A stretch of 64,000 bases of DNA from assembly GCF_000255115.2 (NCBI RefSeq), contig NC_018068.1, positions 3,381,977-3,445,976 of the forward strand. Direction: 5' to 3'. The notes below the pieces were generated by a model. It did no database searches. It worked only from the letters and a program-made list of their open reading frames with translations, and was not told where the DNA came from. Made by a program: the position numbers and the translations under genes. Shown one piece after another: positions 26,660 through 41,129 of the stretch (position 1 is its first letter; the number at the start of each line of letters is the position of its first letter). This DNA comes from Desulfosporosinus acidiphilus SJ4 (lineage in GTDB: Bacteria; Bacillota; Desulfitobacteriia; Desulfitobacteriales; Desulfitobacteriaceae).

Positions 26660-27550
26660 ATGAACTATTCTCAAAGTATTCAAGACACCATCGCTTACAT
26701 TGAACAACACCTCTGCGAGAGGCTCTCATTGGATGAGATTGTAAAAGTATCCGGATTTTCAAAATATCACTTTGTTCGCATTTTTAAGCGCGAGACCGGA
26801 TTGGGGTTAAAGGAGCATATTCAAAGCCGTCGGTTAACTTTAGCGGCGAAACTTCTTCTGTCATCGAAGTTTAGTATTATGGATATTGCTCTCTATTGCC
26901 GTTTTGAATCTCAAGAGGCCTTTACAAGAGCATTTAAGAAGGTATACGCGCTTCCTCCCGGAAAATATCGCCGTGTCATAAACCACTTAGTAACTATAAA
27001 CGAGGTGAACGATATGAAAAATAATCAGCAAATTCCCGGATGGATCATAACAGGAACCGCTCCAGGGAAATTTGAAGCTGCATTTGACCAAGAAGTGTTT
27101 TTTAAGGGAACAAAATCGGTGCTTTTGAAAAGCACCAGTACAGAACTGGAGACAGGCGACTACTATGCGGTAATGCAGCAGTTCAAAGCCAAAAACTATA
27201 TTGGAAAAAGAGTGCGTTTATCAGGGTTTTTAAAAGCAAGAGGTGTGACTGGCTGGGGTGGACTCTGGATGAGGATTGACAGCATAACCGCAAATGTGAT
27301 CAAAATTGATAATATGCAAAACCGCCCTATAACGGGCGATTCGGACTGGAACCATTATTCGGTGGTGCTTGATGTGCCGGAAAACAGCGCAATTATCAAT
27401 ATCGGTATGCTGCTCAGCGGCACGGGGGAATTATGGATGGATAACGTTTCCTTTGACATCGTTGACAAAAATGTTCCGGCTACGGATGTCGATCTCAGCA
27501 GTGAATTGCCAGAAAAGCCTGTGAACCTTTCCTTTGAGGAGAACAGGTAA
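26660..27550 (+). CDS. AraC-family regulator with C-terminal beta-rich domain
   Basis: The 296-residue protein has an AraC/XylS double helix-turn-helix at the N-terminus (residues about 8-105), with LSLDEIVKVSGFSKYHFVRIFK as the first helix pair and the conserved FESQEAFTRAFKKVYALPPGKYR as the second. The remaining 170 residues, from NQQIPGWIITG on, look like a beta-sandwich of the galactose/carbohydrate-binding type (FEAAFDQEV...GKRVRLSGFLK...LWMDNVSFDI). This order, DNA-binding first and sensor last, is the reverse of classical AraC. The target and ligand are unknown. GGAGGAG precedes the ATG. Confidence 0.8.
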   Translation: MNYSQSIQDTIAYIEQHLCERLSLDEIVKVSGFSKYHFVRIFKRETGLGLKEHIQSRRLTLAAKLLLSSKFSIMDIALYCRFESQEAFTRAFKKVYALPPGKYRRVINHLVTINEVNDMKNNQQIPGWIITGTAPGKFEAAFDQEVFFKGTKSVLLKSTSTELETGDYYAVMQQFKAKNYIGKRVRLSGFLKARGVTGWGGLWMRIDSITANVIKIDNMQNRPITGDSDWNHYSVVLDVPENSAIINIGMLLSGTGELWMDNVSFDIVDKNVPATDVDLSSELPEKPVNLSFEENR

Positions 27551-27620
27551 AAAGATTCCGAAGAACAATGCAAGAATTTGTGGCGGTTGGACTGTGTTAC
27601 TGCCATTATTTTAAATCAAA

Positions 27621-27684
27621 TATAAAAATAAAACACAGAGGTTATGGATAATAAATAGAATTCATAACCTCTGTGTTTATTATA
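27621..27684. terminator. bidirectional terminator
   Basis: A perfect 16-bp stem (27631-27646 with 27663-27678) with A/T tracts on both sides separates the AraC gene from the convergent cytochrome gene. The minus-strand side has the better U-run. Confidence 0.8.
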
Positions 27685-27704
27685 AGCTTAGACAAACGAT
27701 CACC

Positions 27705-29204
27705 TCAGGGATGTGAGGCGCTCCGATCATGACATTTGTGACAAGAATCAGCTCCTTGCTCCAAAAGGGATTGCTTGCAATTGCTTCCATAAACTAATGG
27801 AATAGAAAAGGTTTTGCCCGTCACACGACTGGTCTGGACCCAACTATTTCCCTCATGGCGGATAAAGGGCAGCTCCTCCCCTTTTCCTGTAACAAGAATC
27901 TCATCTCCAAGTTTCAGAGCAGGAAATTTAGGATTGGTTAGTTGCTCTTCAAAGGCTAAGTCCTTAGGATCTACAATCTTCTTAGTCTTAGGGAGAGTTT
28001 CTTTTGTACCATGACAGTCTTGGCATTGAAGGTGAACAGCCTCATATTGTGAGGTGTGAAGTAGGTTGTCTCCCATGACGTCCTGCCTTGTATGACAATC
28101 AATACAATCCAGGCTGACTTCACATTGAGCGAAAATTTCACCGGGCAAATAGTAATCTTTGACCCTATCCAGATAATTTGTATCTCCGGATTTCCAGTCA
28201 CTAATGACTTTAGTCATATCCGAACGAAACGCAAAACTCATTTTGAGCGGGTCATGATTTCCTTGATTATGGCACTGATTACACTGGGTATAAGGAATTT
28301 GGGTTGTCAGGCTGTGGGTCATCCCCCAGCCGAGATCAGCGGATCTCATAGTCGTATCTGTCCCGATATAAGTATGCATAGGGTTCGTTAAAACATGACA
28401 TACCTCGCAACCCTTCGCCGTGATCTTGTTCTCTGTTTGAGATTTAGCTCCGGTTTGGCTGCCCTGGGGAGAAAGATTATTGGACGTTGGAAAAACGGGG
28501 ATTTCCCCTCCGTTTTGATGACATTGATTGAGACAGTTCTGCTGAAACGCTTTCTGATTAGGCTGTCCCTGCAGAGGATTGGGATAAAGGGCTGCTGTCT
28601 GCCCCTTGACAAGCCCTGGCACCTCATTCGTTTTATCAAATCCGAACATCCTGCGTACAACACTGAGCTCGCCAGCCTTCGTGGACATAATCGACGTTTT
28701 CACGAGATCGACTTCATTTTTCGCCGCTTCCTGATTACCTGAGTGACAAGCCATCCCGTTCTCAGCCGTTCCTCCGCAGCTTAAAGAAGCTGTGTTCAAG
28801 GAGCCCGGATGCCCCCCTCCATACATTTGATCATGAGCGGTCCCTTTATCCAGAGAGAGAGGATTTCCGCCATGGCAAGCGACACAGCCAAACGTATTGC
28901 TGGGATGGGAGCTGGAAATCTCCTCTATACCGATATGACAGGTTTTACAGCGCTCAACCTTCCCATTAGGAAGAACCAGGTCAATGATTTCAGGTTTCTG
29001 ATTCTGAAAACTCTTGATTTCTTGCTTCAGTTGAGTTCTCTTCGCCTCATCTTTAGTCGAATTTAATTGTGCATGCAATGTTGCTGCCTGTTCTTTAAAA
29101 TACTCCCGTTGATATTGTGCCCAATCTGGAGTTCTGCCTTGAATAAGGAGAATTAAAACGACAAGACCCACGAAAAGGCTTACTAAGATCAGAGCTTTTT
29201 TCAT
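27705..29204 (-). CDS. membrane-anchored multiheme cytochrome c
   Basis: The 499-residue protein has one N-terminal membrane anchor (residues about 3-22) and is otherwise periplasmic. Seven canonical CXXCH sites are at residues 86, 107, 266, 308, 367, 394 and 488. Two Cys...CH arrangements with unusual spacing, CX9CH at 143-154 and CX3CH at 224-229, may be further heme sites. The start is the ATG at 29204, overlapping the preceding stop by 4 bp. It is the last gene of the ten-gene redox operon and is the likely electron acceptor of the Rieske/cytochrome b complex. Confidence 0.88.
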   Translation of the reverse strand: MKKALILVSLFVGLVVLILLIQGRTPDWAQYQREYFKEQAATLHAQLNSTKDEAKRTQLKQEIKSFQNQKPEIIDLVLPNGKVERCKTCHIGIEEISSSHPSNTFGCVACHGGNPLSLDKGTAHDQMYGGGHPGSLNTASLSCGGTAENGMACHSGNQEAAKNEVDLVKTSIMSTKAGELSVVRRMFGFDKTNEVPGLVKGQTAALYPNPLQGQPNQKAFQQNCLNQCHQNGGEIPVFPTSNNLSPQGSQTGAKSQTENKITAKGCEVCHVLTNPMHTYIGTDTTMRSADLGWGMTHSLTTQIPYTQCNQCHNQGNHDPLKMSFAFRSDMTKVISDWKSGDTNYLDRVKDYYLPGEIFAQCEVSLDCIDCHTRQDVMGDNLLHTSQYEAVHLQCQDCHGTKETLPKTKKIVDPKDLAFEEQLTNPKFPALKLGDEILVTGKGEELPFIRHEGNSWVQTSRVTGKTFSIPLVYGSNCKQSLLEQGADSCHKCHDRSASHP

Positions 29205-29572
29205 AAATGTGTCCACCACAATTCTTTCACCATAAACCAAAACAGAAGGATCAGGACCGAGCTAAAAAGAACGCTGAAAATCCCCCTTCCCCATTTGTCT
29301 CCCCAATAATGGGCAGCCCAGGGCACCCCCGCCACTCCAAAAATGATTAGGGCGGGAACTGCTAAAGCTCCCAACCAAGGCGGGAGATATAAGAGCAACA
29401 CCTGGAAAGGACCAAAAATCCAGGGTGCGGTGGCATGAGAAACTGCCGGAGCTAAATTACTCGTCCCCACTTTCGGCGAGATTATAAAGGCCAACAAAGT
29501 ACAGAGGATCAGAAAAATCAGTGCAGCAATTCCTTCGCTTTCTTTAAGATCATTAAGGGGTGAACGAGCCAT
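29201..29572 (-). CDS. cytochrome b6f subunit IV-like membrane protein
   Basis: The 123-residue protein has about three transmembrane segments (residues 14-32, 45-75 and 95-115) with LYLPPWLGAL near the second. It lies directly after cytochrome b6, as petD does in split cytochrome b complexes. Subunit-IV identity is inferred from position, size and topology; similarity is weak by eye. I chose the ATG at 29572 with AAGGAG 5 bp upstream; the 160-residue reading from 29683 has no such signal and runs into the cytochrome b6 gene. Confidence 0.65.
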   Translation of the reverse strand: MARSPLNDLKESEGIAALIFLILCTLLAFIISPKVGTSNLAPAVSHATAPWIFGPFQVLLLYLPPWLGALAVPALIIFGVAGVPWAAHYWGDKWGRGIFSVLFSSVLILLFWFMVKELWWTHL

Positions 29573-29585
29573 GGTATCTCCTTCC

Positions 29586-30311
29586 TTAGAGAGGACGTAC
29601 TCCGCCGTCACGGCGAATCCGCCAAAAGTGATAGAGCTGCAGCCACAACGCCGCGAAAGGCAAGGCCACACAGTGCCAAACATAGACGACCAAGGTGCTG
29701 CCGCTCAAAGCGGTTGGTTCCCCTAAGGCAATATGCGCCAGTGCTGTTCCCAAAACCGGAATTTGCTTAAGGATATTGGCTGCAACCGTTGCCGCGGCAC
29801 CGCTTTCTTGAGAACCAATGAGCAGATAACCTGTAAAATCCAAAACCAAAACAAGTACCAGCAGTCCAACACCGACGAGCCAATTGAGCTGCTTTGGAGG
29901 CTTGTAAGAATGAGTCCATACCACCCTCACCATATGTAAATTAACGGTAACGACCATAAGTTGAGCTGACCAGTAATGCAAGTTTCTGATGATACCCCCG
30001 TAAGGAATTACTGACCCCAGGGTAAGAACGCTGCTGTAACCAGTACTTTCACCCGGTTGATAATGAAACATTAAAAGGAGTCCCGTAACCCCCAGCATTA
30101 GGAATGCCAGAAATGACAGGCCCCCGAGGCAGAAGGTGTAGAAAACAGAAAGTGCACGTTCTGGAATAGATCGTGGTCTGAGGTGATCGACAAAGCTGTG
30201 TCTGGAATTCCGAGCCGACCCCTCAGGTGCCGGTTGTTTTTGTTTCAGATCATGGTCAGACGTCTGGACTGGCTTCTGGACCATAGTTTGTGTTGCACTT
30301 AATTCCCTCAT
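29586..30311 (-). CDS. cytochrome b6 (N-terminal cytochrome b) subunit
   Basis: The 241-residue protein has four transmembrane helices. The heme-ligand pairs are His residues in NLHYWSAQ...NLHMVRV (14 apart) and VWHC...LYHFWRIRRDGG. The second pair has 14 residues between its His, as in cytochrome b6 rather than mitochondrial cytochrome b. It oxidises quinol together with the Rieske protein. The start ATG overlaps the Rieske stop by 4 bp. An unusual 45-residue polar N-terminus precedes the first helix. Confidence 0.92.
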   Translation of the reverse strand: MRELSATQTMVQKPVQTSDHDLKQKQPAPEGSARNSRHSFVDHLRPRSIPERALSVFYTFCLGGLSFLAFLMLGVTGLLLMFHYQPGESTGYSSVLTLGSVIPYGGIIRNLHYWSAQLMVVTVNLHMVRVVWTHSYKPPKQLNWLVGVGLLVLVLVLDFTGYLLIGSQESGAAATVAANILKQIPVLGTALAHIALGEPTALSGSTLVVYVWHCVALPFAALWLQLYHFWRIRRDGGVRPL

Positions 30312-30760
30312 AGCCGTACTTCCAATCCCACGTGTTTCTCCGTATTAATGATCAAAGAACCATCCGCCTTCCGATCCACGGCTACCCTTGGCAAGGCCTT
30401 AGGGGCAGGCCCGGCTATGGGCCTGCCCTCTATATCGTAAATGCTGCCATGGCATGGGCACAACCATTCTTTTTTATCCGCATGATAAGTCACTTCACAG
30501 CCGAGATGAGTACAAGTTGCTACCAATGCAGTAATGCCCTGATCATCCTTCTTCACCCAAACCCGTGAATTCGGAACATGCTGCCAGTCTGTTTTTTCCT
30601 TAAGGCTCTTGTCATAAGACACTAAGGGCGAGCGCGGCTGGTCTTCGTTGCTTGTCAGATAGTCAAGAAGTGGTTTGACGCTCAGAGCACCTACCGCAAC
30701 CATTCCGGCCCAAGCAAACCGCAATACTGTCCGTCTTGTGCATTCTATTGGCCCAGTCAT
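30308..30760 (-). CDS. Rieske [2Fe-2S] protein
   Basis: The 150-residue protein carries the Rieske cluster motifs CTHLGC and CPCHGS with the usual spacing. The N-terminus TRRTVLRFAWAGMVAVGAL is a Tat-type signal anchor, so the domain lies outside the membrane. It transfers electrons from quinol to the cytochrome c. It sits between the NrfD-type subunit (39-bp gap) and cytochrome b6. Confidence 0.95.
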   Translation of the reverse strand: MTGPIECTRRTVLRFAWAGMVAVGALSVKPLLDYLTSNEDQPRSPLVSYDKSLKEKTDWQHVPNSRVWVKKDDQGITALVATCTHLGCEVTYHADKKEWLCPCHGSIYDIEGRPIAGPAPKALPRVAVDRKADGSLIINTEKHVGLEVRL

Positions 30761-30799
30761 CCTTTTTCAGCCCCTTCTTCCCACGATCTCCAAGTCGTC

Positions 30800-31696
30800 T
30801 TAAAACCAACGGCTCCATTGCCCGGCATAAGTGATGATATAGCGGACAAAGAACCCCCCAAAGAGTACTAGAAAACTGCTGCCGATAGTTACTGGCAGGG
30901 TCCAACGGACCGGGATTTTCTCTTTCAACTCCAGGTATTCCAGTGAAAAAGGGATCACCAATCCAAGGCCAATGATCAAAATCCAAAAAATCAGAGCAAA
31001 TTCACCGTAAATCATAGTTCCATAAGCCTCCGCAACGCTTATAGAACCTAGTCTTCCCATAACAATCATTGCTAATAGTATAAAGCATTCTAAAACAATG
31101 AGTAAAGCGTCCACTTTCGTCAATAGATGCAATTCATGATACTTTGCCCGCTGCCAGGGTGTTACTGATGAGATAAATATTACGGCGGCCACCCCAGTCG
31201 ACAACGCTGATACTAAAAAAAGCACCGGCAGCAAGGGCGCTCCCCACAAAGGGCGCGCGGCAGCATTGAGAAGGAGACCGGTATAAGATGCCACGCCTAT
31301 TGACAAAAAAGGGATTACCTTAGCCAACCGTTTTTTCCATTGTTCCAATGATTTAGTATCCTCAACCATTTGAAACTTTTGAGGAAGCCAAAGATAAAGA
31401 TAAACAACGCTGAGCAGGGTGAACAAAAGAATCGCCCAACTCCCATACGACATAGGGGAACGAACCTGTAAGGTCATAAATAAACGATAGAAGTTAAAAG
31501 GGCTTCCTAAGTCCAGCAGAAGTACTGCTAAACCTAAAGAAATTGGAAAGGGCGAGATGAATGCCCCCCAGCGCCCAACCCTCTCAAAATCTTTACCACC
31601 AAAGAGCAAGGCCAGGTTCGAGGTAATCATAGCTCCGGCACTTACGCCAGCAGTAAAAAGGTAAATGACAATTAATAAGCCCCAAGTTATTTCCAC
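30800..31696 (-). CDS. NrfD/PsrC-type membrane subunit
   Basis: The 298-residue integral membrane protein has about eight transmembrane helices and follows the PsrC/NrfD pattern (ITWGLLIVIYLFTAGVSAGA start). Such subunits bind quinol or quinone and exchange electrons with a four-cluster ferredoxin subunit. I chose the GTG at 31696, with AAGGAGG 8 bp upstream; the TTG at 31702 is too close to it. It forms a three-subunit molybdoenzyme with the two genes upstream. Confidence 0.88.
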   Translation of the reverse strand: MEITWGLLIVIYLFTAGVSAGAMITSNLALLFGGKDFERVGRWGAFISPFPISLGLAVLLLDLGSPFNFYRLFMTLQVRSPMSYGSWAILLFTLLSVVYLYLWLPQKFQMVEDTKSLEQWKKRLAKVIPFLSIGVASYTGLLLNAAARPLWGAPLLPVLFLVSALSTGVAAVIFISSVTPWQRAKYHELHLLTKVDALLIVLECFILLAMIVMGRLGSISVAEAYGTMIYGEFALIFWILIIGLGLVIPFSLEYLELKEKIPVRWTLPVTIGSSFLVLFGGFFVRYIITYAGQWSRWF

Positions 31697-31716
31697 GTGC
31701 AAACCCTCCTTACCAC

Positions 31717-32292
31717 CTATTTGCCCTCCGGTATTTCCGGGACGACGTCATCAATGTAATAAATATTGGGGCCTGTTCCCACATACTTCAAAAGCTGACG
31801 GGCAGGATATTTGGCAATTAATTTGGCTACGACACTGTCCGGGTCATTGAGATCACCGGCTTGCCGTGATTTTCCAAGACAAGTCTGAACACAGGCAGGC
31901 TTTAAGCCTTCTTCCAAACGCTGCAGACAAAAGGTGCATTTATCCGCTTTACCTGTCTCCGGATTGGCAAAACGAGCATCATAAGGGCAAGCAGTAAGAC
32001 AATATTTGCAGCCGATACATTTACTGTTTTCAACAATGACAATACCATCGGAACGTTTTTGAGATGCTCCGGTAGGACATACCGAAACGCAAGGAGGGTT
32101 GTCACAATGCATACAATTTCCCGGTTGAAAAACTTCTGTAATCTTTGGGAACTTACCCTGAACACCACTGCTTTTGACCCAATTGCGCGTTTTACCAATG
32201 GGCACGTCATTTTCGGCGCGGCATGCGACCATACAGGCATCACAGTCGATACAGCGCGAAGTGATAATGACAAATCCCATGCGAACTGTCAT
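31717..32292 (-). CDS. four-[4Fe-4S] electron-transfer subunit (PsrB/DmsB-type)
   Basis: The 191-residue protein has the four-cluster ferredoxin pattern of DmsB/PsrB subunits: CIDCDACMVAC, CMHCDNPPCVSVCP, CIGCKYCLTACP and CTFC...CVQTC. It carries electrons between the NrfD-type subunit and the catalytic molybdopterin subunit. GGAGG precedes the ATG and the gap to the catalytic gene is 11 bp. Confidence 0.93.
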   Translation of the reverse strand: MTVRMGFVIITSRCIDCDACMVACRAENDVPIGKTRNWVKSSGVQGKFPKITEVFQPGNCMHCDNPPCVSVCPTGASQKRSDGIVIVENSKCIGCKYCLTACPYDARFANPETGKADKCTFCLQRLEEGLKPACVQTCLGKSRQAGDLNDPDSVVAKLIAKYPARQLLKYVGTGPNIYYIDDVVPEIPEGK

Positions 32293-32303
32293 AGTTTTCC
32301 CTC

Positions 32304-34520
32304 CTACGCCTTACTTACGGTTACAAACGTCTCACTCAAAGCCGAACCTCCCGAGAGTGGATCCGTAACGGTCTTGTGGAGTGCTGAATCGCTTGCTCCA
32401 AGTTTATAGGCTGATCTAAGTCCTTTGCTGACATGCCCAAATCCTCCGACCATGAAAATGCAGTCCGGCCGGATTCCTTCGGTAACCTGGGCCTTAATTG
32501 TCACTTTTCCTACATCGCTTTCCAGGACAACATCATCATCCGTCTTGATTCCCAGGCGGGCAGCTACTGACGTATGCAGCCAAGCCCGGTTTTCCGGAAA
32601 AACTTCCAATAACCAGCGGTTATTTTGAGTAAACATCTGGGTATGCTGAGCTGTTTTTCCCGTCAGGAGGTAATAACGGCCTTCGGGAGGACGAGGCGGC
32701 TCATCCCAAGTGGGCACGGCCTTTTTGCCCATTTGGGCCATAATACTCGATGCTAATTCAATTTTGCCGCTGCTGGTTTGAAATTCGAAGTCTTTAGAAT
32801 GGTCTTCGTGAAAATTTGGGATAGCATAATGCCCGGCCCTTTCTAATTCATCTAAGGTGATTGGGAAGGGTTTAAGCTGTTTAGCCAAAAGATCCCGTTC
32901 ATCCTTATAAGGGAGAAAATCACCAAGGCCTAATTTCTCAGCTAGTTCTTTGTAAATCATCAAGCTGCTTTTTGTATCATATAAAGGGTCAATCACCGGC
33001 TGTCTGATAAAGATTTTATTGCCAATAGGGATTAAACCGTCATAGCGTTCCAGATAACTTGATTCAGGTAGAATAACATCAGCATAATAGGCAGTATCGC
33101 TTGCTTGAATGTCAATAACAGCGACAAAATCCAACTTCATAAAGGCATTGATGGTTTTCTGCCGTTCCGGTATCGAAAGAATGGGATTCTGCCGAGAAAT
33201 CAACCACCCTTTAGCCTCATAAGGTTTACCAGACAAGATATTATCCCGCATGGTTTGAATTACACCATAAGATAAAGGAACTAAGGGATACTGCCAGGGT
33301 ACCCCGTCAAGTCGTATTCCCTGGGCCTGGGGAAAGGGGGGATGAGACAAAACCCCAAGCTTTGCCGTATTGATTTCCTGATCAGGAATTAGTCCTCCTG
33401 GCTGGGCCCAATTGCCGATCAGGGCATTCAGTACGGCAATGGCCCGCTCCGTTTGAAAGGAATTCTTAAAATTCGATGTCCGCCAGTTAGGATGGGCAAT
33501 AGCAGCAGGAGCAGCCGCAGCAAACTCCCGGGCAATCCTTTCTATGGTTGCCGCAGGAATCTCACACTTTTGCTCCGCCCATTCCGGCGTATACTCTTTG
33601 ACCTCTTGGACCAAATCATCAAAGCCTTGAGTATAAGTTTTTACAAAGTCTGCCTTGTACAGTTTTTCTTTAATAATGACATGAAGTATTGCTAAAAAGA
33701 AAGCGGAATCTGTTCCGGGCCGTATTGGCAGCCATTCTGCAGCTTTAGACGCTGTTTTGCTGAAACGCGGATCAAGAACCACAACCTTTGTTCCCCTGGC
33801 AATCATTTCGATCATTTCTTGGGTTTCATTGTTGGAAATTCCCTCCGCCAGATTTCTTCCCATAAATATCATATACTTGCAGTGTTTATAATCCGTACCC
33901 GGCTGAGGAACACCGTAAGTATATAAAAAGCCGGTGGTCATAGCATTGAAGCATAAACTTCTCTGGGTGCCATAGTTAGGGGAACCAAATGCCTTCAGTA
34001 AAATCTCAAAAAAGGGCTGGGACAGATTGTCTGTGGAGTTGAACATCATTGCTTTAGCGCCATACTTATCTTTGATTTTTTTCATCTGATCTGCCGTATA
34101 AGTTAAGGCTTCATCCCAGGAAGCTCTGCGCCATAATCCGCTTCCACGTGCTCCCGCCCGAATAAGAGGAAATTTGATGCGGTCAGGGCTGTATAACGTT
34201 TCAATTCCTGCATTTCCCCGCGGGCAAAGTTTGCCCATATTATTAGGATGATCCGGATTTCCTTCTAACTTTTTTACAGTACCGTTTTCGACCTTGGCAA
34301 TGACTCCGCAGCGCCAGACACATTGCTCACAAATCGTTGTGACCTTCCGGGACTCAGTACTCTTGGCCGCTGCCTTTGACGCCGAATGGTCCACAGCCAA
34401 CATATTATCCGGCGTTAAGAGCCCCAAGCCCGCCGATGCACCCAACGCAGCACCGGCAGCAGCGCCTTTAATAAATTGCCGGCGGCTGAACAATTGGTCC
34501 CAAGTATAGACTTTGGACAT
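32304..34520 (-). CDS. Tat-exported molybdopterin oxidoreductase, PsrA/PhsA-like
   Basis: The 738-residue protein is the catalytic subunit of a DMSO-reductase-family enzyme. A Tat signal SRRQFIKG begins at residue 12. The [4Fe-4S] site is C64, C67, C71 and C99 (followed by PRG). The likely Mo/W ligand is C190 in RSLCFNAMTTG, as in polysulfide and thiosulfate reductases. The C-terminal molydopterin dinucleotide-binding domain is present. Polysulfide, thiosulfate or tetrathionate are the natural candidates; direction of catalysis cannot be read. The start ATG at 34520 has AAAGGAGG upstream; an ATG at 34541 is less supported. Confidence 0.9.
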   Translation of the reverse strand: MSKVYTWDQLFSRRQFIKGAAAGAALGASAGLGLLTPDNMLAVDHSASKAAAKSTESRKVTTICEQCVWRCGVIAKVENGTVKKLEGNPDHPNNMGKLCPRGNAGIETLYSPDRIKFPLIRAGARGSGLWRRASWDEALTYTADQMKKIKDKYGAKAMMFNSTDNLSQPFFEILLKAFGSPNYGTQRSLCFNAMTTGFLYTYGVPQPGTDYKHCKYMIFMGRNLAEGISNNETQEMIEMIARGTKVVVLDPRFSKTASKAAEWLPIRPGTDSAFFLAILHVIIKEKLYKADFVKTYTQGFDDLVQEVKEYTPEWAEQKCEIPAATIERIAREFAAAAPAAIAHPNWRTSNFKNSFQTERAIAVLNALIGNWAQPGGLIPDQEINTAKLGVLSHPPFPQAQGIRLDGVPWQYPLVPLSYGVIQTMRDNILSGKPYEAKGWLISRQNPILSIPERQKTINAFMKLDFVAVIDIQASDTAYYADVILPESSYLERYDGLIPIGNKIFIRQPVIDPLYDTKSSLMIYKELAEKLGLGDFLPYKDERDLLAKQLKPFPITLDELERAGHYAIPNFHEDHSKDFEFQTSSGKIELASSIMAQMGKKAVPTWDEPPRPPEGRYYLLTGKTAQHTQMFTQNNRWLLEVFPENRAWLHTSVAARLGIKTDDDVVLESDVGKVTIKAQVTEGIRPDCIFMVGGFGHVSKGLRSAYKLGASDSALHKTVTDPLSGGSALSETFVTVSKA

Positions 34521-34555
34521 AGTCAGACCTCCTTTCCACATTAACAGAACAACGT

Positions 34556-35146
34556 TTAGTTTATATTCAGAGTCTTAACTGGTTTTACAGAGTCATCAGC
34601 AGGGGTACCTTTTGAGTTTTCAGCGACTTTGGAGCCCACATAAAATACAATCGTACAGAGAACGAAGAGGGAGATAAACAGCCAATGGTTCACATGAAGA
34701 AGTTCCTCAAGGGATTGCTGTCCATAGACACCAATGGTGGAAATTTTTAAGAAGATGGACTGGTAAGTGGCACCAAAGAGAACTCCACCGACCAAAAAAC
34801 CTAAAACCCCCGGAATTAAATAGTCCAAATTTCCTTGACCACAACCTGTGATCAGCGTACCTGGTCATGTTCCGGCTAAAGCCATACCAACTCCGAACAG
34901 AAGCCCGCCCAGAAGATTGCCGACAATATAGGTGGAGGACATTTGATCTAATTGAATAAAGCCCAGATCCTTCAAGGCATATAGACCCACAAGTCCCACT
35001 GAAATCCCCGTCATCATAAATTTCATGATGGTGTTATCTTTAAAACGAAATTGGTTAACAATTCGATGATAATGACCTAGGCCGGCCTTTTGCAGCGCAA
35101 AGGCGAAGAAAAAACCAATCGCTAAAGGAATAATATAGGTGGTCAT
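34556..35146 (-). CDS. YeeE/YedE-family transporter half with in-frame UGA, probable selenoprotein
   Basis: One continuous frame of 196 residues is interrupted only by a TGA (34865-34867) at residue 94. Downstream codons PGTLITGCGQGN and another 90 residues of YeeE/YedE sequence follow in the same frame. Family members have Cys in the AGxCPGT motif, here AGT-U-PGT. Directly after the UGA (34836-34854) an 8-bp hairpin with loop GGU starts 18 nt downstream, fitting the bacterial SECIS rule. I read it as selenocysteine. Known members import thiosulfate or are linked to selenium traffic. The start ATG at 35146 has GGGAGG upstream. Its stop lies 35 bp before the molybdoenzyme gene. Confidence 0.85.
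34836..34854 (-). promoter_or_regulatory. candidate SECIS hairpin for selenocysteine insertion
   Basis: On the minus strand UGAUCACA pairs with UGUGGUCA over 8 bp (one U-G wobble) around a 3-nt loop GGU. The loop starts 18 nt after the UGA at 34865-34867, inside the 16-37 nt window known for bacterial SECIS elements, and begins with the conserved G. It also lies in the coding sequence, as bacterial SECIS do. Confidence 0.75.
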
Positions 35147-35147
35147 T

Positions 35148-35678
35148 TTAATAGTCCCTCCCATATAAAAGTTTAGTGGTAATAATTCCAGACACAAATA
35201 AACCAACGATAAATAATAAGCCTGCCGGTGAAAGCTGCATTGTCCCTGATATAGCTAAACCGCTGGTGCATCCGCCTGCGATACCTGCCGAGTATTCAAT
35301 GATGATGCCCCCAATAAAAATCAGTATCCATCGTTTTAACTTGCTGGGCCCAAAGTTCTGCGTCCATAACTGATCTGGCATCAAGCGCAATTTGAAATCC
35401 CGTGACCATAGGCTTGAGGCAAGAGCGCCAAGGATCATGCCAATAAAGAGGATTATTTGAAAACTCACGACAGGGGGCATTTGAAATTTAAAATACATAG
35501 AGTTGGCTAAGTTAAAATGGAAGGTTTTAAGCAGAATGCTGTCAATACTTTCTAGGCCACCGGAGGAACCAATAGTCTTGTCAACTAAAACATAGGAAGC
35601 GATGGCCGTCAATCCTAAAAGAAATCCTGCTGCCCATGGAGACCATGTTTTCTCTTTCATTTTTTCATTAAAAGACAT
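35148..35678 (-). CDS. YeeE/YedE-family transporter half (N-terminal half)
   Basis: The 176-residue membrane protein has about four or five transmembrane helices and the YeeE/YedE motif SAGIAGGCTSGLAISG with Cys at residue 137. It ends one base before the second half-gene begins, so the pair should together form the complete transporter with one Cys and one Sec at the pore. I chose the ATG at 35678 because the GGGGG upstream has good spacing; the ATG at 35684 overlaps the previous stop (ATGA) and is also possible. Confidence 0.85.
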   Translation of the reverse strand: MSFNEKMKEKTWSPWAAGFLLGLTAIASYVLVDKTIGSSGGLESIDSILLKTFHFNLANSMYFKFQMPPVVSFQIILFIGMILGALASSLWSRDFKLRLMPDQLWTQNFGPSKLKRWILIFIGGIIIEYSAGIAGGCTSGLAISGTMQLSPAGLLFIVGLFVSGIITTKLLYGRDY

Positions 35679-35680
35679 GA

Positions 35681-36568
35681 TCATCTTCCCCCTTTCTCTT
35701 TCTCCTGCTCGACTCTGGAAATTAAAAGTTTTAGATCGTTTTCATCCATGGTTTGGAGTTTAACCAGAACAGTCTCCGGCAATTGAGTCAATAGATGCAA
35801 GGTTTGCCGTCCCTGATGACCTTCGAGGATCGACTTAAGAATTAGAATTGTCTCCATATCTCCCTCTAATAACTGAGTGAACACTTCTTGAACTTCCGGC
35901 GGGAGAGAATTAAAAGGGACATTCTTCTGCTTTCCTTTAATATAGGCCCAAGGCCAGAGGCCTTTTTTCCATTTCCAAAGCAAGATTGCCAAGACAAAAA
36001 GAGCCAACACATCGGCTAAAATAATAGCCCAAGCAAGCAAGGATAACCTGCCGTTTTGGTTAAAGTCAAGAACATCAAAATTCGGATTGGCACTGGGTGG
36101 AACTTGAGCAGCCGCCGGAGAAGGAGTGACCGATCCGTTGTCTGTCGAGGTTGTTGTTCCTGATGCTGAGGGACTTGCCGCAGAACTTTTTCCTGATGGA
36201 GTTGCAGTACCTCCGTACTTTGCAGCTCGTGCCGCAGCATCCGTAGGATGACAAGAAATACAAGTTTGATCTGGCTGAGTTACGGGGTTTGCAATCATCC
36301 CCGCATGCGCTTTTGTTTTATCGGTTTCCGTAGCTACCCCTAAGTGACAAGCTTGACAGAAATCCCCAAAGGAATGTTGGCTATGCCAGTCTCCCTTTTT
36401 GGAAACGGGATCTGCGCCTTGAACTTCGTGACAGGTTTTACAAGAAGACGTTGAGGCTCCACAGGCTGCCTGGACATCTTGGGGAGTCGACAATCCCAAA
36501 GCCCCTAAGGAAGCAATTCCGACAATACCAAAGATTACGGCAATAAATAGCTTTTTTATTCCTTTCAC
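35681..36568 (-). CDS. membrane-anchored triheme cytochrome c
   Basis: The 295-residue protein has a signal peptide (residues about 5-35), three CXXCH sites at residues 43, 71 and 103, a low-complexity Ser/Thr/Pro/Ala linker (about 118-165), one transmembrane helix (about 178-200) and a 95-residue cytoplasmic tail. The heme part is outside the cell. It is first in the operon and overlaps the next gene. I do not recognise the tail, which looks helical and charged. Confidence 0.85.
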   Translation of the reverse strand: MKGIKKLFIAVIFGIVGIASLGALGLSTPQDVQAACGASTSSCKTCHEVQGADPVSKKGDWHSQHSFGDFCQACHLGVATETDKTKAHAGMIANPVTQPDQTCISCHPTDAAARAAKYGGTATPSGKSSAASPSASGTTTSTDNGSVTPSPAAAQVPPSANPNFDVLDFNQNGRLSLLAWAIILADVLALFVLAILLWKWKKGLWPWAYIKGKQKNVPFNSLPPEVQEVFTQLLEGDMETILILKSILEGHQGRQTLHLLTQLPETVLVKLQTMDENDLKLLISRVEQEKEKGGR

Positions 36569-36767
36569 GTTTACTCCTCACCTCATTTCAAATTAATGCG
36601 TTGTTGTTTTTAAGTTCTTCGTCTTTATCACCCCCAACCATATAAGGCTTTCATCCATTAAGTAATTTCTTAAAACATACGATTGAAATAAATAATAATT
36701 AATTTTAGGAAAATTCTAGATATTGGAACTCATTTATGCTAATATATTCACAAATCCCCTTTGTCCT

Positions 36768-36787
36768 ACCCCCCGGGGGAGGGGGGT
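36768..36787. promoter_or_regulatory. G/C-tract inverted repeat between divergent genes
   Basis: ACCCCCC (36768-36774) and GGGGGGT (36781-36787) are perfect 7-bp arms around a GGGGGA spacer, in otherwise A/T-rich DNA about 200 bp upstream of the redox operon. The G-tract arms resemble sites of the CsoR/RcnR repressor superfamily. No promoter is obvious. The rest of 36569-36899 holds no gene. Confidence 0.4.
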
Positions 36788-36899
36788 CCGCGGCTAGCTA
36801 TAGAATACAATGAAATCATCTTCAGGTCAATATCGAAAAAACAATAACCCTGTGTCGATTTTTATTCCATAAGCATTGAGGAGGAGGAAGATAGTCATA

Positions 36900-37115
36900 A
36901 TGGAGGATTTAAAATCATTAAAACGCGAGGTTTTAATTCAACGTCTGAAAACTTTAACTGAGGAACTTGAAGAACTGGAAGAAGAAAGAAGCTTTGTTTT
37001 AAAACAGACCGGACTTCATCTTCCCGGGCATACCGTCAAAAAATACGAAACAGAATTATCGGCACTTAACAAATCCATTGCAAAACTTCAAGAGGAAATA
37101 GCTCGAAGACCTTAA
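36900..37115 (+). CDS. small coiled-coil protein of unknown function
   Basis: The 71-residue product consists of two predicted helices, the first with a very Glu-rich stretch (LTEELEELEEERSFVLK), separated by GLHLPGH. I know no family for it. A GAGGAGGAGG lies upstream of the ATG at 36900; a TTG at 36876 is in frame. It runs divergent from the sulfur/bc operon across the G/C-tract palindrome. Confidence 0.55.
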   Translation: MEDLKSLKREVLIQRLKTLTEELEELEEERSFVLKQTGLHLPGHTVKKYETELSALNKSIAKLQEEIARRP

Positions 37116-37127
37116 GCCAATCCACAC

Positions 37128-37262
37128 TGCAGGAGTCTGCTTATTCAGCAGCTGTGCGGCGATAAGCTCGTCTGCTTATCCGCTGAAGACAGCTCCCGCG
37201 CAAGCAATGAGCGAGCCTCGGACTGCTAAGTGAAAGCAGAACGAAGTGCCATGGGACTCTGA
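37128..37262 (+). other. structured intergenic sequence of unknown function
   Basis: AGCTGT (about 37153) and ACAGCT (about 37188) close a long imperfect hairpin with GATAAGC/GCTTATC at its tip. It is enclosed by GAGTC (about 37135) and GACTC (about 37256), and other G/C-rich helices are possible in between. No reading frame is convincing. It could be a small RNA or a decayed repeat. Confidence 0.4.
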
Positions 37263-37265
37263 TAG

Positions 37266-37290
37266 AATAAAAAAGCGTGCAGAAGCACGC
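37266..37290 (-). terminator. terminator of the MerR-type gene
   Basis: GCGTGC (37275-37280) pairs with GCACGC (37285-37290), followed on the minus strand by a U-run (37266-37274). It lies about 80 bp after the stop at 37370. Confidence 0.85.
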
Positions 37291-37369
37291 GAAAGATCAC
37301 TATCCGTATATTATTCTTTCTGTAGATATTGATTTCCAAGTCATCAATACTCATTTTTAGTACCAATTG

Positions 37370-37819
37370 TTACTGTCCGAGGGGTGTCCCATCCTTGCAT
37401 TCCTGCCCTTCCCTACAAGTTTTCAAGAGAGCGCAAGAATTACACATTTCCGCTTTGTCACTTGCAACGAGACAATATGTATTTTTTATTTTCCAACATG
37501 CTTTTGCTTCATTGACAGGTACAGGACTGTTCTGATAAGCCCCGCCTTTACAATTGCGATTGTACCAACAAGAATACATCGAAATCAAGTGTTTGGCTCC
37601 TGCAATATTTAACCCCTTTTGATCTAATAAAAACTTAATAAATTGAAGCCGCTTAATGTCATTATTTGAATACCTGCGTTGCTTACCTTTTCTTTCGGGG
37701 TGTATGAGGTTATTTTTTTCCCAAACTCTTAGAGTCTCCGGATGTTCATCAATTAACTCCGCAACCGTGCCAATCGTATACAATCCTTGATCCTCATCAA
37801 GCATTTCTGTCACTTCCAA
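37370..37819 (-). CDS. MerR-family regulator with cysteine-rich C-terminus
   Basis: The 149-residue protein has an N-terminal MerR-type helix-turn-helix (YTIGTVAELIDEHPETLRVWEKNNLI, residues about 14-39, followed by RRYSNNDIKRL). The C-terminal half holds eight Cys: 84, 90, 108, 116, 126, 129, 135 and 141. Such a cluster can bind an iron-sulfur cluster or metal. It is not the usual SoxR (CXXCXXXXXC) pattern. Starting at M6 is also possible. It follows the NifU-like gene by 24 bp and may form a unit with it. Confidence 0.8.
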   Translation of the reverse strand: MEVTEMLDEDQGLYTIGTVAELIDEHPETLRVWEKNNLIHPERKGKQRRYSNNDIKRLQFIKFLLDQKGLNIAGAKHLISMYSCWYNRNCKGGAYQNSPVPVNEAKACWKIKNTYCLVASDKAEMCNSCALLKTCREGQECKDGTPLGQ

Positions 37820-37843
37820 ATATCATTAAGACCCTACACGGTC

Positions 37844-38245
37844 TTAGCTATCGAGATTTTCAAACTGGATATGATATATGCCTCGCCTCAGAAGATAATT
37901 CTGTATGGTTTTGCGCAGAGTGCCTAAAGCAAGATCTATTCCAGGATGATCTGCTTCAACCGACCACTCCAAGGCGTCCTTGACATCTTGTTTAGTTATT
38001 TTTAAAGCTTCCGCCAAATGTTTGCCTTTGGCTAAAATAGTAGTCATACTGCAACATGCTATCGTCTCGTTATCCCCGCTTACCCAAAAGCTAATGCTTT
38101 TAATAATCCCAAATTCCACTTTAATTTCAATTGTACAATTAGCCCCGCTTTGTGGATCTTCCACAGTTCCTTCGCCATCGGAATTCTGCATCTTACCTTG
38201 ATTCATAGGATTTGTAATAAGTTCCAAGAACTTTTGCGAATACAT
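37844..38245 (-). CDS. NifU/IscU-like iron-sulfur scaffold protein
   Basis: The 133-residue protein resembles the N-terminal scaffold domain of NifU/IscU: a beta-strand with Cys (GANCTIEI), then GDNETIACCSMTTILAKG with a Cys pair, and a helical C-terminus. The third IscU Cys near the end is not visible, so an atypical variant is likely. I chose the ATG at 38245 because GGTGGTG stands 6-8 bp upstream; the first ATG is at 38263. The neighbouring MerR-type protein has many Cys. Confidence 0.7.
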   Translation of the reverse strand: MYSQKFLELITNPMNQGKMQNSDGEGTVEDPQSGANCTIEIKVEFGIIKSISFWVSGDNETIACCSMTTILAKGKHLAEALKITKQDVKDALEWSVEADHPGIDLALGTLRKTIQNYLLRRGIYHIQFENLDS

Positions 38246-38379
38246 CGTTTCACCACCACTCATAAATATTAAATCACATTATATTTTATTATTTAATTTA
38301 TTTCAATAATTTTATTGATATTCTGGGCATACTAGTTTATTATTCTCATCAAAGAAACTTATAAAGAAGAGTGCTTGAA

Positions 38380-38850
38380 ATGATTGAGTTAATGATACCT
38401 GGTAAAGGAGCAATAACCCTAAGCGTATTGGTTTTAGACTTTAATGGAACATTAGCGTTAGACGGCAGATTGTTGGAATCCGTCAAGGAGGACCTTAAAC
38501 GTTTGTCTCTTTTTATGGACATTCACGTTCTCACCTCAGATACTTTTGGGTCGGTGGAACGCCAGTGCCAAGAACTGCCTGTTAAAGTGAAGGTTCTGGG
38601 TAGCCTGGATCATACTCAAGAGAAAGGGGACTATATCTTAACCTTTAACCCAGATCGCGTCGTTGCGGTTGGAAACGGTTCTAATGATAAGATAATGCTT
38701 GAAAAAGCAGGTTTAGGGATTGGTGTGATTGGATTTGAAGGAGCTTTTACGTCAACGTTATTATCTTCCGACATTATCGTCAACGATATTAAAGATGCTT
38801 TTGGTTTGCTCTTAGAACCTCAGCGACTTAAAGCAACTCTCAGACGTTGA
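38380..38850 (+). CDS. HAD-like hydrolase, soluble P-type-ATPase-like domain
   Basis: The 156-residue protein starts with the HAD motif I, DFNGTL (nucleophile Asp), has VLTSD as motif II, and GNGSNDKIMLEKA as motif IV. This resembles the phosphorylation domain of P-type ATPases in a soluble form. Substrate unknown. The start is the ATG at 38380; a GTG at 38371 is in frame. It is divergent from the NifU-like gene and convergent with the Mrp gene. Confidence 0.75.
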   Translation: MIELMIPGKGAITLSVLVLDFNGTLALDGRLLESVKEDLKRLSLFMDIHVLTSDTFGSVERQCQELPVKVKVLGSLDHTQEKGDYILTFNPDRVVAVGNGSNDKIMLEKAGLGIGVIGFEGAFTSTLLSSDIIVNDIKDAFGLLLEPQRLKATLRR

Positions 38851-38864
38851 TTTTCTTGGCTAAT

Positions 38865-38907
38865 TAAAGAAAACTTGGCGGGCAACCTAAGACACTGTCA
38901 TCGTGTG
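38865..38907. repeat. dispersed palindromic repeat, copy 3 (diverged)
   Basis: The stretch AAAGAAAACTTG followed by AGACACTGTCATCG aligns with the copies at 4208 and 11572 but has changes in the second arm, so the palindrome is weaker. It lies between a HAD gene and a terminator. Confidence 0.45.
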
Positions 38908-38949
38908 AAAAGACCAAGAGCTTGCTCAGTGCAAACCTTGGTCTTTTTA
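38908..38949. terminator. bidirectional terminator between convergent genes
   Basis: AAAAGACCAAG and CTTGGTCTTTTT form an 11-bp stem with a loop of about 18 nt, flanked by A and T runs on both sides, serving the HAD gene and the Mrp gene. Confidence 0.75.
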
Positions 38950-38957
38950 GATTTTAA

Positions 38958-39812
38958 TTAGGCTAACTTTTCGCCGCTATTTTTTTGTATTTCTTGGGCT
39001 AAACGTTTTGCTATTTCATCAAAGATCGGAGATTTGTAATCTTCTATCTTACCGGCATCTGCCAATTCAGTCAAGGTTGGATCAAGCGGGAGTTCTCCCA
39101 AAAATGGAATGGATGTGCGTTCTGCTTCATCTTTTCCTTGGGGTTTTCCAAACACCTCCATTCGATGATTGCAGTCAGTACATTGAATATAAGCCATGTT
39201 TTCAATTAAACCATAAATCGGAGGCTTATAATTGCGAACCATTTTTATGGCTTTACGAACAACCATGTTGGCCAATGATTGGGGACTTGTTACCATAACA
39301 ACGCCATCAATGGGGAATGATTGGAAGACCGTAATGGGAACATCACCGGTACCCGGAGGCATATCAATTAAGAGATAATCAAGATCTCCCCAAACAACTT
39401 CTGTATAAAACTGATTGACAATTTGGGTGATTAGGGGTCCTCTCAAAATTACAGGGTCATCTTCCGTTTCAATCATAAGATTCAAAGACATAACTTTTAT
39501 CCCGTCACGGCTCTGGGGGGCAAGAATTCCGGTCTTACTGACCCCCGCTTTACCTGTAACCCCAAACATTCTGGGGACACTTGGTCCTGTAATATCAGCG
39601 TCTAAAATTCCCACTTTAAATCCTTGACGCATTAAACTTACAGCTATCATACTCGTAACGGAGGATTTACCAACGCCTCCCTTACCACTCATGACAGCAA
39701 TAATTTTATCGATGTGACTGGCTTTTTGAGCCTCCGTTAATTTTGGCTGACTGGAACAACTATCTGTCGTACAGGTTCCTGCTGCTGAACAGCTATTACA
39801 CGCTTCGCTCAC
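38958..39812 (-). CDS. Mrp/NBP35-family P-loop ATPase
   Basis: The 284-residue protein is an ApbC/Mrp-type iron-sulfur carrier ATPase. The deviant Walker A is SGKGGVGKSS, the Walker B LLIDMPPGTGD. The N-terminus has a Cys-rich leader (CNSCSAAGTCTTDSC) and a CxxC pair occurs near the C-terminus (CTDC). It probably moves Fe-S clusters onto apoproteins. The start is GTG at 39812 with GGGAGG upstream. It is clustered with the NifX-like and DUF134 genes. Confidence 0.92.
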   Translation of the reverse strand: MSEACNSCSAAGTCTTDSCSSQPKLTEAQKASHIDKIIAVMSGKGGVGKSSVTSMIAVSLMRQGFKVGILDADITGPSVPRMFGVTGKAGVSKTGILAPQSRDGIKVMSLNLMIETEDDPVILRGPLITQIVNQFYTEVVWGDLDYLLIDMPPGTGDVPITVFQSFPIDGVVMVTSPQSLANMVVRKAIKMVRNYKPPIYGLIENMAYIQCTDCNHRMEVFGKPQGKDEAERTSIPFLGELPLDPTLTELADAGKIEDYKSPIFDEIAKRLAQEIQKNSGEKLA

Positions 39813-39929
39813 GGTAATGCCTCCCTTTCCTATCGTAAATTACCTTTAAAAAGGTAATAAATCCAAATTCATCTTACTCCCCGGATTCAAGCTTTGTCAA
39901 GTTTGTCCAATATTGGCAACGTTCCAGTC

Positions 39930-40316
39930 TTAATGGCAGGAATGGCCGTGATCATGACCGTGGTCATGCCCGTGATCATGCTGACACACGGATCCGGTGC
40001 TTACGACTTTGCCCTCTGCATAGGCTTGGGCGACATCAGCAACTCTTCCTGAAGCCCCGGAAACTACTTGTAATCCTACGGCGTTAAGACCATTAATCAT
40101 TCCCCCGCCGATTCCGCCACAAACGAGTACTTCCACTCCTTTATTCTTAAACATGTTGGCAAGCCCTTCATGTTGATGTTGAAGACCCACTGTGCTGAGT
40201 ACTTCTACCAAACGAGCTGTCTGTCCCTCAATTTCAAACACGGTAAACGCGGCTGCCCGTCCAAAGTGGGCATCTAAAACCTCACCATTTGTTGGAATTG
40301 CTATCTTTTTGGCCAT
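39930..40316 (-). CDS. NifX/NafY-like dinitrogenase cofactor-type protein with His-rich tail
   Basis: The 128-residue protein matches the dinitrogenase iron-molybdenum cofactor biosynthesis fold (IAIPTNGEVLDAHFGRAAAFTVFEI start, VLVCGGIGGGMINGL in the middle). The tail CQHDHGHDHGHDHGHSCH is a strong metal-binding sequence. Such proteins near Mrp ATPases are associated with Fe-S or metal delivery in anaerobes. AAGGAGGG precedes the ATG. It is 31 bp after the DUF134 gene, so co-transcription is likely. Confidence 0.85.
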   Translation of the reverse strand: MAKKIAIPTNGEVLDAHFGRAAAFTVFEIEGQTARLVEVLSTVGLQHQHEGLANMFKNKGVEVLVCGGIGGGMINGLNAVGLQVVSGASGRVADVAQAYAEGKVVSTGSVCQHDHGHDHGHDHGHSCH

Positions 40317-40346
40317 TGAATAAACCCTCCTTATAAATATTTTCTT

Positions 40347-40832
40347 TTAAGTGCTTTCTTTACGACAGTCGCTCCGGCCTTCCTTCAACAAATGACTGTC
40401 ACATGGACGGTTAACTCCTTTGTCTAAGCGCATTTTCTTCATGTCGCCACATTTTGGGCAGACCAGTTCGTAGCCATGTTTTCCACCGGCAGAACACGGT
40501 TTCTCCTCCCAAACATGATGACAATTAAGGCACTCAAAGACCCTATTTTTTACTGTGTAATTACCTCCTTGAATAATAATAGGTCTGCCTTCCAGTAAGG
40601 CAGTGGCAATTTTCACCCTAGCTGCACCAAGAATTCGTTGAAACGTAGCCCTGGAAACTCCCATAGATGCTGCACATTCACCTTGATCTAGACCCAACTT
40701 GTCTTTGAGACGAACGGCTTCAAGTTCCTCAAGCTGGATTAATACTTCCGGCCAACGTGAATATCCCTGAGGTATGAACGTTTGACAGACTATCGTTTCA
40801 TCAATTCGGCCGCAACAACGCCGTCTTGACAT
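40347..40832 (-). CDS. DUF134-family DNA-binding protein
   Basis: The 161-residue protein has the DUF134 N-terminus (RRRCCGRI), the ELEAVRLKDKLGLDQGECAASMGVSRATFQRIL sigma-like helix-turn-helix, and C-terminal CLNC and CPKCG zinc-ribbon-like pairs. It probably regulates the following NifX-like and Mrp genes. I chose the ATG at 40832, with AAAGGAG 7 bp upstream. Confidence 0.85.
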   Translation of the reverse strand: MSRRRCCGRIDETIVCQTFIPQGYSRWPEVLIQLEELEAVRLKDKLGLDQGECAASMGVSRATFQRILGAARVKIATALLEGRPIIIQGGNYTVKNRVFECLNCHHVWEEKPCSAGGKHGYELVCPKCGDMKKMRLDKGVNRPCDSHLLKEGRSDCRKEST

Positions 40833-41129
40833 TGTATCAGCTCCTTTTGGGCATATGCTCAATTACAGTATAGCCATAATTCTTCGAATAATCAAGTATT
40901 AGACTTTTTACTCCCAGGAAAACCTCTGCTATTTGCGCCGGCAGCAAGGAGTAAAATTTATTTACAAACGTCATATCCCCAGTTGAGCCCCCTTCTATAA
41001 GTGAGGGTTACACCTCCGATTCAATCAACCTTCCAATCCCATAGGCCTTTGGAAAAGCCACCCCGAGACTGCGGACCGTAAGGAGTTGCTCCAATAGGGA
41101 CCACTTGTTTCTTCGTAACCCATTAGGAT
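40833..41129. other. intergenic gap without a supported gene
   Basis: Between the DUF134 gene and the CsoR-type gene there is no convincing gene. On the minus strand a stretch at about 41000-41125 is richer in G/C than its surroundings and could encode a 30-40 residue peptide in two frames, neither with a ribosome binding site. It may be an RNA element or a decayed gene. Confidence 0.4.

Follow-up and report, generated by a model that had tools for sequence, protein, structure and literature searches.

The window, i.e., the whole 64,000-nucleotide stretch of the Desulfosporosinus acidiphilus SJ4 genome that was analysed (contig NC_018068.1), contained an operon of ten genes on the minus strand in the following order: cytochrome c, partner half, selenocysteine (Sec) half, molybdoenzyme, 4Fe-4S protein, NrfD, Rieske protein, cytochrome b, small protein and multihaem cytochrome. 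The genes and the features within the putative Sec gene are given below.

35681–36568, minus strand: CxxCH-containing protein, regarded as a c-type cytochrome (its Pfam cytochrome matches stay below the cut-off); overlaps the start of the partner gene
35148–35684, minus strand: partner half, PmpA-like (C-terminal part of PF04143), with a Cys in AGGCTSG
34556–35146, minus strand: putative Sec-containing transporter half, PmpB-like (N-terminal part of PF04143), 196 aa with the UGA read
34865–34867, minus strand: in-frame UGA, codon 94, opposite Cys91 of YeeE/TsuA
34836–34854, minus strand: candidate bacterial SECIS with an 8-bp stem and loop GGU at 34846–34844, the loop from 18 nt after the UGA
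34841–34843, minus strand: TGT codon of Cys102 (+8 from Sec), within the 3' arm of the hairpin
32304–34541, minus strand: molybdoenzyme, nearest to NCBIfam PhsA (620.4 bits, cut-off 694)
31717–32292, minus strand: PsrB/TtrB-like 4Fe-4S protein
30800–31702, minus strand: NrfD/PsrC-like membrane subunit
30308–30760, minus strand: Rieske protein
29586–30311, minus strand: cytochrome b, near ExtP (268.3 bits, cut-off 290)
29201–29683, minus strand: small protein without family match, start uncertain; recurs in L044, L057, L058 and L060
27705–29240, minus strand: multihaem cytochrome, distant ExtM match (130.7 bits, cut-off 800)

A nearby cluster at 38958–40862 of the window, also on the minus strand, consisted of a NUBPL-type P-loop NTPase, a FeMo-co-type protein and a DUF134 protein.

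The reading frame of the putative Sec half opened with ATG at 35146, carried UGA at 34867–34865 and closed with TAA at 34558–34556. The earlier note had described a single in-frame UGA at codon 94, with family sequence running on to a true stop, and both points were confirmed on the minus strand: PF04143 matched residues 29–181 without a break over the UGA (profile 10–160, 86.5 bits, cut-off 27), and the TAA lay beyond. The codon was located mid-protein in the string AGTUPGTLITGCGQGN, the motif being AGTUPGT. In the whole 4.99 Mb, three-contig genome, PF04143 had only two matches, the Sec half and the partner half. As a check on chance, 33 TGA-ended frames of at least 90 codons were collected from the window, two of which stayed open for at least 102 codons beyond the TGA. 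The first start-type codons in frame past the UGA were TTG at 107 and 118, followed by GTG at 152 and 170. For 18 Sec orthologues (153 pairs), the median dN/dS was 0.037 for the part ahead of the UGA (78 usable pairs) and 0.046 for that past the hairpin (67 usable pairs), and the ratio was only rough because the dS medians of 1.6 and 1.5 were near saturation. Judged by these codon comparisons, the stretch after the UGA was plainly constrained as protein by purifying selection.

The conservation of the UGA was evaluated in a relatives set of 60 genomes, 24 of which had a match to the protein. UGA stood at the codon in 18 of them and Cys in three nearer homologues (L035, L038 and L039), and the other three matches were distant. 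The nearest named relatives belonged to Desulfosporosinus, the closest being D. acididurans M1 (93% identity). A scan of named genomes returned 45 loci, from which 17 were dropped as overlapping the set of 60; two Desulfosporosinus-type loci with UGA (L048 and L058) were added, as well as three remoter UGA forms, L063 and L064 from Chloroflexi MAGs and L065 from an unplaced Hainich bacterium. Within the organism's own phylum, 29 of 398 genomes had a match at E ≤ 1e-15, with TGA in nine of the 29; five of these nine (L096–L099 and L101) were new and came from four other families. At the level of the class, only three genomes were searched around G096 and another three around G170. The residue-by-residue total was 28 non-redundant UGA forms and 47 Cys forms (CPGT/CPST), leaving out the distant L040–L042 and L088 (43 residues only). 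The motif of the UGA forms was TUPGT, FUPGT or YUPGT, i.e., [TFY]UPGT. The Cys that had been expected opposite U94 in YeeE/YedE homologues was found in the alignment, and it was the sole alternative to Sec at this site among the matches read. A sense codon on resequencing had been named as a possible outcome; the same UGA recurred in other assemblies and lineages, indicating that it was neither a sequencing error nor a private nonsense mutation.

In a quick tree, all 28 UGA forms were placed in one 34-row set (branch support 100) together with six Cys forms. The Sec/Cys label needed at least four changes, two of which were forced by the starred branches. The Cys form L035/L059 (Desulfosporosinus UBA5188) was nested in the Sec group, with UGA changed to TGC and Cys102 to Ile. 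The top two stem pairs of its hairpin were broken and the lower six kept, the neighbour genes were kept, and the genome still had selA. On these sequences, L035/L059 is read as a natural Sec-to-Cys exchange.

The Sec machinery, which was to be sought as selA, selB, selD and selC, was found in the same genome. A tRNA-Sec with anticodon tca scored 64.9 bits, SelB 345.6 bits (cut-off 242.25), SelA 566 bits and SelD 399.8 bits; selD adjoined selA and had one TGA within its own frame. Among UGA-bearing genomes, selA was sought in the 18 of the relatives set and was above the cut-off in all of them (17 of 17 besides that of the window). It was also above the cut-off in 43 of 59 genomes of that set; hence, the presence of selA was permissive for Sec and not discriminating. 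Among the genomes of the three nearer Cys forms, G022 and G054 had selA, and G051 had no selA match.

The usual distance from UGA to loop in bacterial SECIS elements served as the yardstick for placing the hairpin. Nucleotides 11–18 after the UGA were paired with nucleotides 22–29, and the loop GGU occupied nucleotides 19–21. The 8-bp hairpin with loop GGU claimed in the earlier note was therefore present, but its start 18 nt after the UGA was not, since the loop begins there and the stem at nucleotide 11. The candidate SECIS was a hairpin just after the UGA with a G in its small apical loop, as bacterial selenoproteins require; the loop-G rule is given in the accessible text of PMC1088965. 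Dinucleotide-shuffled versions folded equally well in 7 of 200 cases, and synonymous recoding gave a stem of such length in 9.9% of 20,000 draws (not significant). The hairpin of the window, taken singly, was thus weak evidence, and a comparative test was used instead. In the fixed register, at least seven of the eight pairs were formed in 25 of 28 UGA forms versus 1 of 47 Cys forms. All eight pairs were formed in 20 UGA forms, seven in five and five in three (L063, L064 and L097); L063 and L064 had an alternative 6-bp stem with loop GGUC, shifted one base further on. Only L039 reached seven or more among the 47 Cys forms, and two others reached six. A free scan (any stem, loop 16–24 nt past the codon) reached 8 bp in 20 of 22 UGA forms versus 2 of 25 Cys forms, the latter being L039 (9 bp, loop GGC) and L061 (8 bp, 7-nt loop). 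L039/L066, from a Gracilibacteraceae MAG, was a Cys form with this 9-bp GGC-loop hairpin at the SECIS place in a genome without a selA match; the hairpin may be either a relic of lost Sec or a GC-rich coincidence.

Covariation was examined in 14 distinct UGA sequences. Both sides had changed in five of the eight stem pairs, and 90.2% of the cells paired. The covariation score of 0.522 was reached in 0 of 500 shuffles (shuffled mean 0.231), and slid registers gave at most 0.185, although the relatedness of the sequences inflates scores of this type. Two other measures did not favour the structure: doubly changed pairs were matched in 107 of 500 shuffles, and pair types in 491 of 500. At codons +4 to +9, the mean number of synonymous codons was 1.67, lower than the 3.11 ahead of this stretch and the 2.94 beyond it (p = 0.0014). 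An Rfam search of 27000–39000 in the window found no family. According to the comparison across genomes, in which the UGA was kept in 18 of 24 and pairing followed the register, the case for the UGA and hairpin was strong.

The position of the UGA was then considered against the YeeE structures. In a phmmer alignment with the YeeE chains, residue 94 stood opposite Cys91 and Gly24 opposite Cys22 (6leo; counted on the printed alignment), and homologues had Cys exactly at the site of residue 94, in agreement with the claim that the UGA replaces the conserved Cys of AGxCPGT. The title of PDB entry 6lep reads 'inactive mutant - C91A'. In the accessible text of PMC11582611, C91 and C293 of YeeE are termed indispensable, all three Cys-to-Ser changes in SoxT1B abolished thiosulfate oxidation, and the Cys of PmpB corresponds to C91 and that of PmpA to C293. 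The substrate of YeeE has been proposed, in the part of the literature seen, to pass three cysteines in turn, C293, C91 and C22. The three relay cysteines of YeeE/TsuA were not found in the Sec half, which had Gly24 at the C22 position and Sec at that of C91. The partner gene lay just upstream and ended one base short of the ATG of the Sec gene. Its product matched PF04143 at profile 167–309 (73.7 bits), and its Cys would be of the Cys293 type, judging from the alignment of the partner to the C-terminal half. The AGGCTSG motif was present in 35 of 37 loci scanned and in 26 of 27 UGA loci; L033 was cut before the motif and L073 had none. BLAST detected no significant similarity between the two halves (E 0.26). 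Under the scheme of PMC11582611, as far as its accessible text goes, the Sec gene would be the PmpB-like half and the upstream gene the PmpA-like half with its Cys. The pair was of the PmpAB split type, with two adjacent short genes that covered both halves and contained the Cys91- and Cys293-type positions.

The predicted structure of the Sec protein had a mediocre pLDDT of 69.3, with a short helix at 95–102 directly after U94. Foldseek with this pLDDT 69.3 model returned four matches, all YeeE (E 0.1–0.63, probability 0.91–0.99). YeeE/TsuA of Spirochaeta thermophila (6leo, 6lep, 8j4c and 8k1r) provided the only PDB matches by sequence and by fold, with PF04143 in common and Sec94 at the Cys91 position of the relay. 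The Sec system differs from it in being split into two genes, with Sec for Cys91, Gly24 at the C22 position and an extra Cys102. The PmpA/PmpB pair, likened here through its published description, likewise consists of two short genes; the differences are the Sec in the PmpB-like half, lengths of 196 and 178 aa versus about 130 aa there, and the redox operon (PMC11582611, accessible text). No NCBIfam model reached its cut-off for the Sec half: the TsuA models gave 47.8 bits (cut-off 400) and 39.4 bits (cut-off 645), and the YedE selenium transporter models (TIGR04112 and NF033796) 23.8 bits (cut-off 200) and 27.9 bits (cut-off 350). A YeeD/TusA gene was not found among the ten operon genes scanned.

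A further Cys accompanied the Sec. It was located at +8 in 20 of 20 Desulfosporosinus-type forms and at +4 (UPGTC) in the eight other UGA forms, so that a Cys at +4 or +8 occurred in 28 of 28 UGA forms versus 1 of 47 Cys forms. The sole Cys form with such a companion was L113 (G436), at +4 (CPGTC). In an ideal helix, +4 and +8 lie roughly on one face (40 and 80 degrees). The codon of Cys102 is within the stem, and Cys102 may hence be there for the RNA; the +4-type codon is at nucleotides 10–12, at the base of the stem or beyond it, which favours a protein-level reason. On the starred branches of the quick tree, the companion Cys moved with Sec in both independent pairs, and one of the two did so in 2 of 200 pairings. 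Over all branches, there were four such pairs, too few for significance. The companion Cys is likely to be the partner of Sec, as its distribution among the sequences suggests.

The operon was largely preserved around the UGA forms. L044, L058 and L060 had all ten genes in the same order, and L057 had all but the last, at a sequence edge. The Chloroflexi (L063 and L064) and Hainich (L065) loci had eight of the ten genes each. In the five loci L096–L099 and L101, covered by short sequences, cytochrome c and both halves were followed by the molybdoenzyme (four loci) or by Rieske protein and cytochrome b (L096). The molybdoenzyme orthologue (E ≤ 1e-200, best 18 candidates per genome) was present, among the matches listed, in 19 of the 60 relatives, namely the 18 UGA genomes and G022 (Cys form). 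Its twin-arginine signal match was weak (20.5 bits, cut-off 22.7). The likeness to PhsA and the twin-arginine match support a reaction with a sulfur oxyanion or polysulfide, probably outside the cytoplasm, with which the operon would act; substrate and direction are proposed from gene content. Moreover, the likeness to ExtP and ExtM leaves room for a selenium role. In the accessible text of PMC5877670, the Geobacter ext cluster (extHIJKLMNOPQS) is linked to selenite/tellurite reduction. It has a Rieske protein, an ExtP-like cytochrome b, an ExtM-like multihaem cytochrome and a selenoprotein in common with the present operon, whereas its selenoprotein is a cytochrome (ExtKL), its gene list there includes no YeeE-type half, and the ExtP and ExtM scores of the Desulfosporosinus operon (27705–30760, minus strand) were below the curated cut-offs.

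The locus most probably encodes a genuine selenoprotein, the Sec form of a PmpB-like half-transporter. From sequence comparisons, we infer that Sec is inserted, that the two halves pair up and act in transport, what their substrate is, and that Sec and Cys form a relay. UGA codon 94 would be read as Sec, directed by the hairpin just downstream. The product would be one half, of the N-terminal type, of a YeeE/PmpAB transporter split in two, and it would pair with the product of the gene directly upstream. In the putative relay, the first Cys would come from the partner and the second position would be Sec94; the third (C22) is missing, and its place may be taken by the Cys one or two helix turns past Sec (residue 98 or 102) in every Sec form. 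Together, the two halves would carry reduced sulfur (thiosulfate, sulfite or sulfane sulfur) through the membrane, next to a PhsA/PsrA-like molybdoenzyme that is probably exported and a chain of Rieske protein, cytochrome b and cytochrome c. As the earlier note proposed, Sec in place of the pore Cys might make the transporter more reactive.

The earlier note had judged Sec likely over a nonsense mutation, a judgement strengthened by the conserved UGA, the Cys homologues, the Sec machinery, the hairpin and the selection after the UGA. Under the standard code, the frame does stop at the UGA and a TTG-started frame comes next, as would suit a nonsense mutation or the end of the first of two separate genes. 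However, the UGA was present in 28 forms with frame and protein kept beyond it (dN/dS 0.046), conserved residues came right after it, and TTG 107 and 118 were the earliest later starts, which leaves this reading scarcely credible. The open frame, the one point in its favour, would also fit a UGA read as another amino acid by suppression or reassignment; this reading deserves almost no weight, given that TGA ended four of the nine other operon genes, the homologues without UGA had Cys and not Trp, and the Sec machinery and a SECIS-like hairpin were present. Nonsense mutation, split genes and general reassignment of UGA were rejected on the conservation of the UGA, the selection after it and the use of TGA as stop.

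Two other explanations keep the Sec and change its meaning. The transporter may handle selenium or tellurium species, or export excess selenide, rather than sulfur compounds; cytochrome b and the multihaem cytochrome match ExtP and ExtM of the selenite/tellurite-linked Geobacter cluster (PMC5877670), and YedE relatives have been proposed as selenium transporters (PMC5322559), both as described in the accessible texts. This role is considered unlikely, since ExtP and ExtM stayed under their cut-offs, the YedE selenium models far under theirs, the molybdoenzyme was nearest to PhsA, a thiosulfate reductase model, though below its cut-off, and Sec in a protein does not imply a selenium substrate. 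Alternatively, a selenium-dependent switch and not pore chemistry may have been selected, whereby sufficient selenium would allow the full protein, and low selenium would yield a 93-residue fragment by termination at the UGA and perhaps polar loss downstream. The genes for the molybdoenzyme and electron transfer do follow the Sec gene on the same strand. Nevertheless, the site is the Cys91 position with only Cys as alternative among the matches read, which points to chemistry rather than a switch, and the genome has no second copy with Cys, its two PF04143 matches being the two halves; a switch is thus very improbable. The preferred reading remains a Sec form of the PmpB-like half that acts on sulfur.

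A second candidate Sec site was observed in the superfamily. The best PF04143 matches were listed for the 398 phylum genomes, and 16 of the rows with TGA were examined. Among the matches listed, nine of these 16 (L125–L130, with L125 at 1–741, and L132–L134) had the TGA at YGUNIG in a C-terminal-type half, and the other seven had it near an end of the match. L122–L124 and L131 had GCNIG at the matching place. After the TGA of YGUNIG, 39–40 similar residues preceded the stop. A strict hairpin scan at the YGUNIG loci gave stems of 3–4 bp only and no SECIS. Two GUNIG proteins were tested with C for U on the selenium YedE/FdhT model (cut-off 350) and scored 100.9 and 94.7. On sequence grounds, GUNIG is a candidate second Sec site at a Cys293-type position. 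One superfamily may carry Sec at either of its two essential pore sites, at Cys91 here and at the Cys293-type GUNIG elsewhere in the phylum; tentatively, the Sec-specific companion Cys would then permit a transient covalent Se–S hand-over of sulfur, coupled to the outside molybdoenzyme.

A YeeE/YedE selenoprotein (WP_012471001.1) is listed in two reviews (PMC9312934 and PMC13188914), and Sec in the superfamily was therefore already known from their accessible parts. It is a PF04143 selenoprotein, as here. The 2026 review (PMC13188914) gives its motif as GUxSG and treats different Sec motifs as separate subfamilies in the text seen, and [TFY]UPGT is set apart from it by this published motif only. 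'YeeE' and 'YedE' were absent from the main texts of Peng 2016 (PMC5029168) and Zhang 2008 (PMC2398784), which are cited for the listed selenoprotein. Four features, namely the [TFY]UPGT motif, its position at the Cys91 site in the PmpB-like half of a split pair, the Cys that accompanies the Sec and the operon setting, were not found in the literature searched (full-text search, the 2026 review and deep-Sep, in the parts accessible, with most subscription papers outside); within this scope, all four appear to be new.

If true, the gene annotation tends to cut the protein at 93 residues. Most known selenoproteins have redox functions. A conserved Sec in a membrane transporter pore, at a position essential in a solved relative, would offer a direct handle on pore-cysteine chemistry, i.e., on whether these cysteines in YeeE-type transporters only form hydrogen bonds with the substrate or carry sulfur covalently. 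Furthermore, in sulfate reducers such as Desulfosporosinus, an operon for sulfur respiration would be linked to the supply of selenium.
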